From Gulosibacter chungangensis (GTDB lineage: Bacteria > Actinomycetota > Actinomycetes > Actinomycetales > Microbacteriaceae), in the NCBI RefSeq assembly GCF_008831155.1, contig NZ_WBKB01000008.1:62001-126000 (forward strand): a DNA stretch of 64,000 bases, read 5' to 3'. The notes under the pieces were generated by a model. That model saw nothing but the letters and a program-made list of their open reading frames with translations, searched no databases and was not told the DNA's origin. The position numbers and the translations under genes were made by a program. Shown here piece after piece: positions 40,494 through 45,352 of the stretch; position 1 is the stretch's first letter, and each line of letters opens with the position of its first letter.

Positions 40494-42077
40494 CTAACTA
40501 GCTACTGAAGTCGCAGATTCTTCGAAGGCCTCGTCAACCTGCGCGGTAGTCATCGGCAGCGTCGAGTCGGCACCGATTTCTAGAGTCGACGGTTCGCGGC
40601 CCGACATCACCAGTTGTGCTCCGAGCGCGGCGATCATCGCGCCATTGTCGGTGCAGAGTTTCAGCGGTGGGATGTGCAGCGAGATTCTCTCGGCGGCGCA
40701 GCGTTCGGCCGCGAGTTCGCGCACTCGTGCGTTCGCGGCGACGCCGCCACCGAGCAGCAGCCGGGGCGTGTCGAATTCCTTGCAGGCGTCGATGGCTTTG
40801 GTGAGCAGGACATCCGCCACCGCTTCGCGGAAGGATGCGGCGATATCGGCCACCGGGACCGGCTCGCCCGCATCCTCGAATTTCTCGACCTGCCGGGCGA
40901 CGGAGGTCTTCAGTCCTGAGAATGAGAAGTCGAAGCGGTGCTTGGCTTGGTCCTTGGGGTGGGTGAGCCCGCGCGGGAAGCGGAAGGCTTTCGGGTCGCC
41001 GTCGGCCGCGACCCTGTCGATGGATGGGCCGCCCGGGTAGGGCAGGCCGAGCACGCGCGCGACCTTGTCGAAGGCTTCGCCGGCGGCGTCGTCGATGGTT
41101 TCGCCGATGAGTTCGGATGCGCCGGTGAGTGATTCCGAGCGCAGCAGACTCGTGTGGCCACCCGAGACGAGGAGCGAGATCGCCGGGAACTCGATCGGTT
41201 CGCCGTCTTCGCGCAACAGGTCGGCGCTGACGTGGCCGACGAGGTGGTTGACGCCGTAGAGCGGTTTGTCGGCGGCGATGGCGAGTGCTTTCGCGGCGCC
41301 CACGCCGACCATGAGCGCTCCCGCGAGGCCGGGACCTGCGGTGACAGCGATCGCGTCGAGGTCCTCGAGGGCGACCCCCGCGGTGTCGAGCGCTTCACGC
41401 AGCACCGGCACCATCGAGTCGACGTGTGCGCGGGCGGCAACTTCGGGGACGACACCGCCGTACTTCGCCTGCTCGTCCATTGAGGAGGCGACGGCGTTCG
41501 CGAGCAGCGTCGTGCCGCGAACGATCCCGACTCCGGTTTCATCGCAGCTGGTCTCAATGCCGAGGACGAGCGGCTCCAGCGGAAACGGTGGCAGGAGTTT
41601 CGCGGCTGCTGTGGTGAGCACCCGGTCGATTTGGCCGCGCATGAGTATGGCCGCTTCGCCACTGCCGGCGTAGTAGCCCTCGCGGCGACCGATGGCTTCG
41701 AAGCTCAGTCGTTCGTACATCGCGCGCGCACCTACATTGCTTTCCCGCACCTCGAGAAAAACGAGCTTTGCGCCGCGTTCTTTCGCCCATTCGAGGGCGG
41801 TCTGCAGGAGCCTTGTGCCCCAACTATCGCGGCGCACCTGCGGGTCAACGACGATGGTCTGCACATCAGCCTCGCCCGAACCCTGCCCGGCGAGCACTCC
41901 GACATAGCCGAAGATTCGCTCACCGTCGGTGAGGGTCCAGTAGCCGGTGTGTTCGCTTTCCACCTCCGAGCGGATGGTCGCTTCATTCCACGCGTCGGCC
42001 GGGAACGCTTCGCGTTCGAGCTTCGAGATCCCGCGGATATCCTCAATTTCTGCGGGCCGCATCACAATCTTGTTCAA
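40494..42077 (-). CDS. tsaD: RimI-TsaD fusion: ribosomal S18 N-acetyltransferase plus tRNA t6A37 threonylcarbamoyltransferase
   Basis: A 527-residue fusion. Residues 1-150 are a GNAT acetyltransferase of the RimI type ([17 protein letters not shown]; acetyl-CoA loop [35 protein letters not shown]). Residues about 168-510 are TsaD/Kae1: [13 protein letters not shown], the metal-binding NHLVGH near 278-283, [20 protein letters not shown] and CTDNGAMIA. TsaD transfers the threonylcarbamoyl group to A37 of ANN-decoding tRNAs with TsaB and TsaE. Separate rimI and tsaD genes are the rule, so this is a real fusion with no frameshift signs. Start: TTG 42077 overlaps the tsaB stop (TTGA); ATG 42062 is an alternative. 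Confidence 0.95.
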
Positions 42078-42807: not shown

Positions 42808-43329
42808 TCAAGGAGTGAGAATTGCATCGAGGGGGGCGTCTGCCCAACGCTGGCCAGTGCCCCGGAGGAGCACGCGGCGAGGTTCGTCAGCCTCATCTTC
42901 GTGGGCTTCAGCACCGGCACCAGCACCAGCTGCGTCCCCCGCCCGCGGCCGCCCAATCACAATCTCCAGCCAGGAGTCCGCAATCGCCGAAACGAATTCA
43001 CTGCCCCATTCGATCACCGTCACCGAGGCCTCAAAGTCGAGGTCGAGATCGTCCAGTTCGAGTGCCGAGCCCAGCCGATATGCGTCCACGTGAATCAGCG
43101 CGGGCCCGCCGCTCACCGAAGGGTGCGTGCGTGCGATCACGAAGGTCGGGCTCGCAACGGTCCCACGCACGCCAAGCGCAGCACCGAGCCCGCGCACGAG
43201 GGTGGTCTTCCCCGCGCCGAGCGGCCCCGTCAACACGAGCACGTCGCCCGCCCGCAGCTGGGATGCGAGCCGTTCACCGAAGGCTTCCATGTCGGCCGCG
43301 GTGCGGATGCTGCCGGTTACTTCGCTCAT
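42808..43329 (-). CDS. tsaE: tRNA t6A biosynthesis ATPase TsaE
   Basis: P-loop ATPase that resets the TsaB-TsaD complex. Seen: Walker A TGPLGAGKTTLVRGLG near residues 34-49, SPTFVIARTHPS (Thr/Ser switch region), Walker B-like IHVDAYRL and VIEWGSEF. 173 residues, slightly longer than usual because of an Ala/Gly/Glu-rich insertion near 130-150. The ATG overlaps the alanine racemase stop (ATGA), so the two are translationally coupled. Confidence 0.95.
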   Translation of the reverse strand: MSEVTGSIRTAADMEAFGERLASQLRAGDVLVLTGPLGAGKTTLVRGLGAALGVRGTVASPTFVIARTHPSVSGGPALIHVDAYRLGSALELDDLDLDFEASVTVIEWGSEFVSAIADSWLEIVIGRPRAGDAAGAGAGAEAHEDEADEPRRVLLRGTGQRWADAPLDAILTP

Positions 43330-45230
43330 GCTGAGTCTCCTTGGTCGCTCGACATCATGCCGTCGCTGGAAATCACCCGGACCGCGGGCAGCCCGAACCC
43401 AGCGGACTCATAGGGTTCGCGCGTGACATACACCCGGTTCACGCGCTGCCCAAGCGTGGCGCACAGTGCGGCGGGTGTGAGATCAGTCCAGGACGCCCAG
43501 TCGTGGAGGCTCACATCGCCGGTCGCCGAACCCCAAATGTGCACCGGCATCCCCGGCCAGCAGTCATTGTCCCCGAGGTCGATCACGACCTGGTCCATCG
43601 CCACTCGCCCCACAATGGGCGCGGTTGCGCCGCCCACGCTCACATAGGCGCGTTCGAAGGCCACGCGAGGAATCGCATCCGCATAGCCAATCGGCACGAG
43701 CCCGAGGGTCGTGTGCTCCGCTGCCCGCCATCGATAGCCGTAGCTGACGGCCTGACCGGGCGCGACCCGCTTGACGTGAATGAGTTCTGAGCGCAGCGCG
43801 AGCGCCGCATGCCGCGTATCGCCGCTGAGGCCGTAGAACGTCCGGGTCGCTTCGGGAGCATTGGCATAGAGCTGCACGTGCTTGGCACCGAGTTCCCGCA
43901 GCCGCGCCACATCCGCATAGGTGCGCGCAACCACCTCGAGGCCCTCTTCGAGCACGAGCGGCAGCAGTTCCGCCGCACCGTGCCCGTAAGCATCGGCGCT
44001 GAGGTCGACGGGCGCATACTGCTCTTGCAGCCCGACGCGCAGTTTGTCCAGATCAATCACCGCTTTCCGAAGCGGCGCCACGCGACGGTCGCTACCGGCG
44101 GCCATCGTGTCGGCCGCCCGCAGCCGCTCCGGCGCCAAATACGCCCGATCGATTCGGCCCGACAAACGCGTCGTAATCTCGTAGTTGATTGTCTCGGCGG
44201 CTGCCGCCCAATCATCCGCCGTGGTCTGCGGACCAATTGCGGTGAGGATGCGCCGGTCACCTCGACCGTCCGGGCTCGGCTCAGTGAGGTCCCCATAGGG
44301 CTCAACGATGCTGTGGTTCTCTTCGATGAGTTCGATCTGCCAGCGGTCACCGAAGTTATCGACCAGCGGCGGCAAGGCTTCCAGCCCGGCTATCTCCAGC
44401 GGCGGCAGACCGTCGGCAGAGCCGATGTCGATCCGCCAACTGTGGCTGTGTTCTTCTTCCGAGGTGAATCCGTGCGCGAGCGGCGCTCGCAGCGAGAGGG
44501 CGGGTCGTAGCGGGATGCCGGGGTCCTCCCCCGCATCGAAGGGCGAGAGGCCGTATATTCCGATGCCAATTCGTACTGCGTCGTAACGCGCCTGCGGATA
44601 CTTCAGGGCCGCGCCGGTCGCGCAGAGATGCACGAGTTCAGGCTGTAACCCGACCTGTTCAGCCAGTGTGAGGCCGCGCTCGAACCTCGCGATCTGCGCA
44701 AGGTCATCAGTCTCGCTCGCCCCGGAGATGTGACTCATGATGCCGACGACCTTGAGCTGCCCGGTTCTCTCGAGGTCGCGTGCCTGTGCAAAGAGTGCCA
44801 GCCAGTCGACCTCGCGAGCACCATTTCGGCCGAGCCCGGTATCAAGTTTCAGGTGGATGCGCAGCGGCCCGGTTTTCTGCGAGCTCACGCGGTTGCGTGC
44901 TCGCTCGCCAACACGGGCGAGCATATCGAAGGAGGAGATGCCGAGTTCGAGATCGGCGGCGAAAGTAGCGTCCCAGTCCTGCATCGGCGAGTGGAGCCAG
45001 GCAAGAATCGGCACTTCGATGCCCGCATCCCGCAGCGCGATCGCTTCGCGTGCATCCGCGACACCGATCATTGGAGCACCCGCACCGACGACGGCCTGCG
45101 CGACCGCAAGCGCACCGTGCCCGTAGGCTTCGGCCTTGACGACGGGGATCACCGCGACACCGAGCGTGTCGCGGAACGTGCGATAGTTCTCGCGAATCGC
45201 GTCGAGATCCACCTCGATGAGGGGCTTCAC
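43326..45230 (-). CDS. alr: Two-module fused alanine racemase with complementary catalytic-residue loss
   Basis: Makes D-alanine for peptidoglycan (PLP-dependent). The family is about 370-400 residues; this protein has 634. Numbering from GTG 45230 (AAAGGAG 7 nt upstream): a complete N-terminal barrel with the PLP Lys32 (VVKAEAYGHG); a degenerate C-terminal domain where the catalytic IGYADG motif reads IGSADG (Ser271) and the MDQ motif is gone, but ending in the conserved TINYEITTRL; a shortened barrel remnant of about 100 residues in which the Lys motif reads LSADAYGHG (Ser411); and an intact C-terminal domain with SYGYRW, IGYADAIPR (Tyr516) and GRVAMDQVVIDLG. One composite active site is inferred. 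It sits between acpS and tsaE, the usual place for alr. Confidence 0.93.
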   Translation of the reverse strand: MKPLIEVDLDAIRENYRTFRDTLGVAVIPVVKAEAYGHGALAVAQAVVGAGAPMIGVADAREAIALRDAGIEVPILAWLHSPMQDWDATFAADLELGISSFDMLARVGERARNRVSSQKTGPLRIHLKLDTGLGRNGAREVDWLALFAQARDLERTGQLKVVGIMSHISGASETDDLAQIARFERGLTLAEQVGLQPELVHLCATGAALKYPQARYDAVRIGIGIYGLSPFDAGEDPGIPLRPALSLRAPLAHGFTSEEEHSHSWRIDIGSADGLPPLEIAGLEALPPLVDNFGDRWQIELIEENHSIVEPYGDLTEPSPDGRGDRRILTAIGPQTTADDWAAAAETINYEITTRLSGRIDRAYLAPERLRAADTMAAGSDRRVAPLRKAVIDLDKLRVGLQEQYAPVDLSADAYGHGAAELLPLVLEEGLEVVARTYADVARLRELGAKHVQLYANAPEATRTFYGLSGDTRHAALALRSELIHVKRVAPGQAVSYGYRWRAAEHTTLGLVPIGYADAIPRVAFERAYVSVGGATAPIVGRVAMDQVVIDLGDNDCWPGMPVHIWGSATGDVSLHDWASWTDLTPAALCATLGQRVNRVYVTREPYESAGFGLPAVRVISSDGMMSSDQGDSA

Positions 45231-45260
45231 TGGCAATCTCCTTTCTTCCACAAGGAGTCG

Positions 45261-45352
45261 GTCATTGAGTAGCGGCCAAAGGCCGCGTATCGAAATGACC
45301 GACACGGCGCGAGTTCGTTTCGATACGTCGCTTCGCTCCTACTCAACGAGCG
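45261..45352. repeat. Pair of opposed GAGTAG...GTATCGA intergenic repeats upstream of alr
   Basis: Copy 1 (45261-45299) reads GTCATTGAGTAGCGGCC then AAAGGCCGCGTATCGAAATGAC; copy 2 (45316-45352) is inverted, CGTTTCGATACG...CTACTCAACGAGCG. Each forms a hairpin. Confidence 0.85.

Follow-up and report, generated by a model that had tools for sequence, protein, structure and literature searches.

How is the active site of an alanine racemase (Alr) assembled when a single chain carries two unlike modules, each of them incomplete? The question is posed by a gene of Gulosibacter chungangensis, of a genus placed in Microbacteriaceae, found in a stretch of 64,000 nucleotides (the window; positions count from its first letter). 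D-Alanine is needed for the cell wall, and the normal enzyme pairs two identical subunits and has two active sites.

The gene and its two modules

The gene occupies 43326..45230 on the minus strand, with a GTG start, 634 codons and a stop. Translation of this frame reveals no internal stops, and a likely ribosome binding site (AAAGGAG, 45238..45244, minus strand) is read from the sequence before the GTG. On the minus strand the genes run glmS, acpS, the fused racemase gene, tsaE, tsaB and rimI-tsaD. A preliminary description had placed the gene in the normal alr locus with a ribosome binding site and an unbroken frame: the acpS and tsaE neighbours, the AAAGGAG motif and the single open frame bear this out. 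Assembly artefact or frameshift is ruled out, since a search of the genus matched all 11 genomes and 10 of them carry the two-module gene as a single open frame (in the eleventh, G006, the frame is broken by an unread base).

Some features of the surroundings deserve record. The rimI-tsaD gene is itself a single ORF (window 40494-42077, minus strand), with RimI at residues 15-146 and TsaD at residues 171-489, each above cutoff. The sequence TTTCGATACG – perhaps a dispersed palindromic repeat – occurs five times in the window (18004, 42781, 45286, 45318 and 53861) against an expectation of 0.07, and forms an inverted pair (45286-45344) immediately upstream of the racemase gene. At another locus, L177 (G362:C1:1280500-1285000), an ordinary Alr continues in frame into what, read from the sequence, looks like TsaE.

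That the 634 residues comprise two fused Alr modules, as the preliminary description had it, is confirmed by Pfam, alignment and predicted folds. Pfam recognises Ala_racemase_N in a single stretch (residues 7-230, E 2.3e-57) and Ala_racemase_C in two, the best at 477-601; the whole protein scores 285.8 bits against the NCBIfam alanine racemase TIGR00492, above the cutoff of 168. Identity with the MurF-Alr fusion (NCBIfam PRK11930) is ruled out: the score of 227 bits falls short of the cutoff, 804, and the Alr part alone is matched.

Module boundaries and gaps were taken from an automatic alignment. Module 1 begins with a full PLP barrel (about residues 1-237; 44520..45230, minus strand), recognised from the Pfam N domain and a structure match to 1vfh, and continues into a degenerate C-terminal domain (about 238-366; 44133..44519, minus strand) in which the VSYG hairpin is deleted, Ser271 replaces the entryway tyrosine, the MDQ motif is lost and TINYE is retained. 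After a linker (about 367-387; 44070..44132, minus strand; pLDDT below 50 at residues 372-383), module 2 consists of a barrel remnant of ~90 residues (about 388-475; 43806..44069, minus strand), where Ser411 replaces the PLP lysine, and an intact C-terminal domain (about 476-603; 43422..43805, minus strand) marked by the Pfam C domain and the structure match of module 2. The alignment thus agrees with the earlier statement that module 1 has lost MDQ and that module 2 has an intact C-terminal domain behind a reduced barrel. Neither module qualifies as a homodimer-type repeat unit with both catalytic residues, module 1 being without the VSYG hairpin and module 2 carrying Ser411.

Division of the active site between the modules

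Crystal papers give the catalytic pair of Alr as Lys39 and Tyr265' (PMC3245724), with Tyr284', Arg290', Arg309, Met312' and Asp313' as further site or entryway residues; equivalents are Lys40 and Tyr263' (PMC3146814), or Lys40, Tyr268', Tyr287', Arg293' and Met316' (PMC4517790). The prime on residue 309 varies between papers and is here assigned to the partner subunit. In the normal enzyme the active site joins both subunits and activity is confined to the dimer (PMC3245724, PMC3146814).

The residues and codons named in the preliminary description are all present as given: Lys32 (45135..45137), the PLP lysine corresponding by alignment to Lys39 of G. stearothermophilus Alr and K in 10/10 fused rows; Ser271 (TCT, 44418-44420) at the lost entryway tyrosine of module 1; Ser411 (AGC, 43998-44000) at the PLP lysine position of module 2; and Tyr516 (43683..43685), all on the minus strand. 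Two interpretations had to be changed. Tyr516 had been taken for the catalytic tyrosine, which is ruled out: it lies in GYADA and aligns to the entryway position (Tyr284'), facing residue 289 (GYADG) of S. lavendulae Alr 1vfh. It is Tyr497 (43740..43742, minus strand), in VSYG in 10/10 fused rows, that stands opposite residue 270 (VSYG) of 1vfh and hence at Tyr265'. The spacing is concordant (497, 516, 522 and 545 in the fused protein vs 268, 287, 293 and 316 in the numbering of PMC4517790), and because the VSYG alignment and the spacing agree, Tyr497 is assigned as the catalytic tyrosine. The tyrosine of module 1, thought to have been lost by a Tyr-to-Ser change at 271, disappeared instead with the VSYG hairpin, which the alignment shows to be deleted there. 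Two other landmarks are Tyr350 (Tyr354; 44181..44183, minus strand), retained in module 1 only, and Met545-Asp546 (Met312'-Asp313'; 43593..43598, minus strand), located by alignment and codon check.

The modules were aligned with 56 ordinary Alr sequences, a set that includes four Herbiconiux copies, and scored at 15 positions, catalytic or at the entryway, where ordinary Alr hardly varies. Nine of these belong to the PLP subunit (39, 43, 129, 136, 166, 200, 219, 352 and 354) and six to the partner (265, 284, 290, 309, 312 and 313). Module 1 retains 9/9 PLP-subunit positions and 0/6 partner positions; module 2 retains 6/6 partner positions (Tyr497, Tyr516, Arg522, Arg542, Met545 and Asp546) and 1/9 PLP-subunit positions, namely Tyr43, retained perhaps for structure. 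Only module 2, then, has a C-terminal domain with equivalents of Tyr265', Tyr284', Arg290', Met312' and Asp313' (Tyr497, Tyr516, Arg522, Met545 and Asp546). The pattern extends across 17 non-redundant fused loci. K129, R136, H166, H200 and R219 are found in every first module, K39 and Y43 in 16/17 (one unreadable) and Y354 in 16/17 (one gapped), while Y265' and R309' are gapped in all 17 and position 312' is never M. Every second module has all six partner residues and Tyr43; K129, H166 and H200 are gapped in 17/17, and position 39 is S in 13, T in three and G in one, never K. Reciprocity spans nearly the whole active site, with PLP-subunit residues in module 1 and interface-crossing residues in module 2; the 15-position comparison and the 17 fused loci bear out the reciprocal loss first proposed.

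Predicted structures are compatible with this division. AlphaFold2 run on nine fused sequences gave a mean pLDDT of 79.5 and a mean pTM of 0.80. Residues 1-373 of the model match 1vfh with Z 37.3 (353 aligned, rmsd 2.9 A); module 2 modelled alone (pLDDT 82.2, pTM 0.76) matches E. coli Alr 4xbj_D with Z 19.4 (206 aligned, rmsd 1.9 A). Each module is thus predicted to resemble an Alr chain in its fold, with most of the barrel missing from module 2, a picture that fits a pseudo-dimer. The top Foldseek rows across both modules cover 607-616 columns at an rmsd of 17-19 A, and the pairing of the modules is not visible from them.

We infer, with a probability of roughly 0.8, that the cell's D-alanine racemase is a single-chain asymmetric pseudo-dimer with one composite site. 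Module 1 would be the PLP-binding half, contributing Lys32 and the residues of the normal enzyme's PLP subunit; module 2 would be a cut-down partner, contributing the residues that cross the homodimer interface. Both would build one composite site, in which Lys32 and Tyr497 would serve as the two catalytic bases, as is usual for the enzyme, and the second site of the homodimer would have been lost on both sides. The residue partition supports the proposal that one chain bears both the Lys and the Tyr portions of a single site. The same partition would fit equally well if two 634-aa chains paired crosswise, each module 1 meeting module 2 of the opposite chain, so that a chain pair had two sites; the normal enzyme does pair two chains, and in split pairs (see below) the halves do exist as separate chains. 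We nevertheless consider such intermolecular pairing unlikely: a pair already fused by a linker needs no second chain, and the mean pTM of the single-chain model, weak evidence though it is, points the same way.

Fused, split and tandem relatives

This division of residues recurs in 59 non-redundant Microbacteriaceae loci: 17 fused (type I, from Gulosibacter, Pseudoclavibacter and their relatives), six Agreia pairs and 36 pairs near parE (type II). Nine loci (L007, L106, L107 and L109-L114) were dropped as genomes already counted, together with L117 (modules identical to L035), one misfiled L147 row, and three Herbiconiux loci, these last since both copies keep both catalytic residues; L108, the same gene as the window's, was omitted. 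Among the 59, L034 is unreadable at Lys39 and L148 stops short of the Tyr265 region. Two-module matches served to choose the type I and Agreia loci, and matches to the truncated Tyr module the type II loci (33 from candidates among the matches listed, plus three from the genus). The real finding is therefore the partner and the residues, not the presence of the module by which a locus was chosen.

Alignment of related alr genes shows the two-module form to be conserved across the genus and in near relatives. The nine other single-frame fused genes are 48-73% identical to the window's, with invariant active-site residues, and the fused form is also found in [Zimmermannella] alba and Pseudoclavibacter. 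In Agreia the two modules are separate genes with a 4-base overlap, Lys module first: in 6/6 loci one module keeps K39 with Y265' gapped, and the other keeps Y265' with K39 replaced by T. The Agreia Lys modules still carry Tyr284, Arg309 and Asp313, and decay is therefore less advanced. Herbiconiux (L049, L064 and L103) has two tandem alr genes, each with K39 and Y265 in 3/3 loci; the second copies have Asp at position 354. Outside the family, three candidates for a two-module case, inspected from among the matches listed in an order-wide search of 347 genomes, were ordinary Alr.

Herbiconiux tandem copies and Agreia pairs look like intermediates toward the fused form. This form probably arose when alr was duplicated in tandem, the copies underwent complementary losses, the Tyr partner was shortened and the two were fused. 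Duplication, fusion and complementary decay had been put forward in the preliminary description, and the residue partition, its conservation and the Agreia and Herbiconiux relatives support it.

Type II pairs have the opposite order – Tyr module first – and a different genomic place from the housekeeping alr. The Lys module adjoins the Tyr module in 36/36 loci; position 39 is K in every one of the 36 Lys modules but never in a Tyr module, and Y265' is Y in 36/36 Tyr modules and in 0/35 informative Lys modules (in the Lys modules of L141, L143 and L147 the region is present but reads A or G). Asp313 is kept in 31/34 readable Lys modules, and position 354 is Asp in 27 and Glu in seven of 34 readable, never Tyr. 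One of the 36, L021 (G005:C1:878084-882148), is a 595-residue frame fused in the reverse order, Tyr-Lys. Another Alr-like locus, L002 (G000:C12:384256-385982; L002:776-2574), is a second, split pair in the genome of the window, outside the window itself: a 227-aa truncated Tyr module (Lys replaced by Arg) has a 4-base overlap with a 372-aa Lys module, which is without the VSYG hairpin and has Asp at 354, and a sugar-transfer-associated ATP-grasp gene follows. Twenty type II neighbourhoods (L156-L175) contain a gyrB/parE-type gene in 20/20 and a sigma factor in 19/20, with a MurT-like gene near in 13/20 and an ATP-grasp gene near in 5/20; neighbour families were scanned on single examples, and the MurT match, at 98.5 bits vs a cutoff of 800, is far below it. 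These neighbours and the acidic residue at 354 suggest that type II is a second racemase, perhaps wall-related.

Trees of the modules bear on the number of origins. In the barrel tree (92 rows, midpoint root for drawing only), the Lys modules of type I cluster together (100/99), as do those of Agreia (100/93), and a branch (100/98) sets both with the first Herbiconiux copies and 27 ordinary rows. Across that branch, 28/35 type II Lys modules join the second Herbiconiux copies (97/83); seven further type II Lys modules branch apart, some of them long-branched and possibly misplaced. In the C-terminal domain tree, a weak one of 84 rows and 133 columns, type I (96/97) and Agreia (100/99) remain groups, with Agreia beside the second Herbiconiux copies at poor support (95/37). 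The trees suggest at least two origins of reciprocally decayed forms, and the intact second copies among type II rows may mean more than two.

A wider reading, to which we give somewhat less than even odds, is that obligate one-site pairs of complementarily dead subunits have at least twice replaced a homodimeric Alr-fold enzyme in Microbacteriaceae: once for the housekeeping alr, whose modules are split in Agreia but fused in Gulosibacter and Pseudoclavibacter, and once for the paralogue near parE. Type II would then be a separate heterodimeric amino-acid racemase, its acidic residue at 354 taking a cationic substrate such as a cell-wall diamino acid.

Cellular role and meaning

A search with PF01168 gave four matches in the genome of the window, namely the fused gene, L002, one YggS and one LysA, with no ordinary alr among them. 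The fused gene is the sole Alr-type PF01168 match in 8/11 genus genomes; the remaining matches in the genus, identified for the window's genome as YggS and LysA, lie in frames of 221-421 residues at E 1e-15 to 1e-19, or are weaker in longer frames. In one relative, G005, the fusion coexists with an ordinary alr and so may be dispensable in that genome. Ddl is above cutoff in 11/11 genus genomes. D-Amino-acid transaminase (TIGR01121, the one model with which D-Ala sources other than Alr were examined) is above cutoff in 0/11, with sub-cutoff matches in 8/11 and none in the window's genome. Since the fused gene is the only Alr-type match in 8/11 genomes, with Ddl in all 11 and the transaminase in none, the fused protein is probably a working, D-Ala-making enzyme. 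Side activities of other PLP enzymes may also be a source of D-Ala, and the split pair L002 might make it in the window's genome. The earlier view of a housekeeping enzyme thus holds as a probability, the gene being conserved across the genus and no ordinary alr having been found in the window's genome; it is qualified by the reciprocally decayed split pair L002, a second Alr-like locus in that same genome, and by the ordinary alr of G005.

If the enzyme is active, its substrate could be other or broader than alanine. Position 354 is tied to substrate choice (PMC4517790), and type II pairs are without Tyr there; the fused form, however, has Tyr at 354 in 16/16 readable cases, keeps the alr gene neighbours and is the sole Alr-type gene in most of the genus, which makes another substrate quite improbable. 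Least credible of all is a decayed or regulatory pseudoenzyme with D-Ala coming from another source: L002, the ordinary alr of G005 and the want of one catalytic residue in either module alone would allow it, but 8/11 genus genomes have no other Alr-type PF01168 match, active-site residues are invariant among genes only 48-73% identical to the window's, and the gene still sits between acpS and tsaE.

The single-chain pseudo-dimer that we favour resembles homodimeric Alr (TIGR00492; 1SFT, 1VFH) in the fold of both modules, in gene neighbourhood and, once both modules are summed, in its full residue set. It differs in having two dissimilar modules per chain, each without half the site, and so one site per module pair vs the homodimer's two. 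The MurF-Alr fusion is likewise a long Alr-containing protein, but there Alr is joined to a different enzyme and here to a second Alr. Mutant Alr subunits served to demonstrate dimerisation in work by Strych and Benedik in 2002, in which inactive ones reportedly complement each other; those were laboratory mutants, whereas here the state has been fixed by evolution and the subunits fused. In trypanosome prozyme pairs, such as AdoMetDC and its dead paralogue (PMC5201418), a dead paralogue is required as partner, as it would be here; there the site lies in one subunit, which is activated, unlike a site that would be shared between two individually dead partners. Among the best-ranked matches listed from the open-licence PMC literature no precedent for a fused reciprocal Alr was found: within the literature searched, the fused, probably one-site Alr is a conserved form of alanine racemase without precedent.

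The family looks like a natural experiment in the passage from a symmetric enzyme to an obligate asymmetric complex. It spans ordinary alr, intact tandem copies, overlapping decayed pairs, and fusions with either module first, and more than one lineage is involved. The idea that complementary loss can build complexity is thereby open to a direct test on an enzyme of cell-wall synthesis, itself a target of antibiotics, and an annotation of alanine racemase in a genome need not mean the textbook enzyme.
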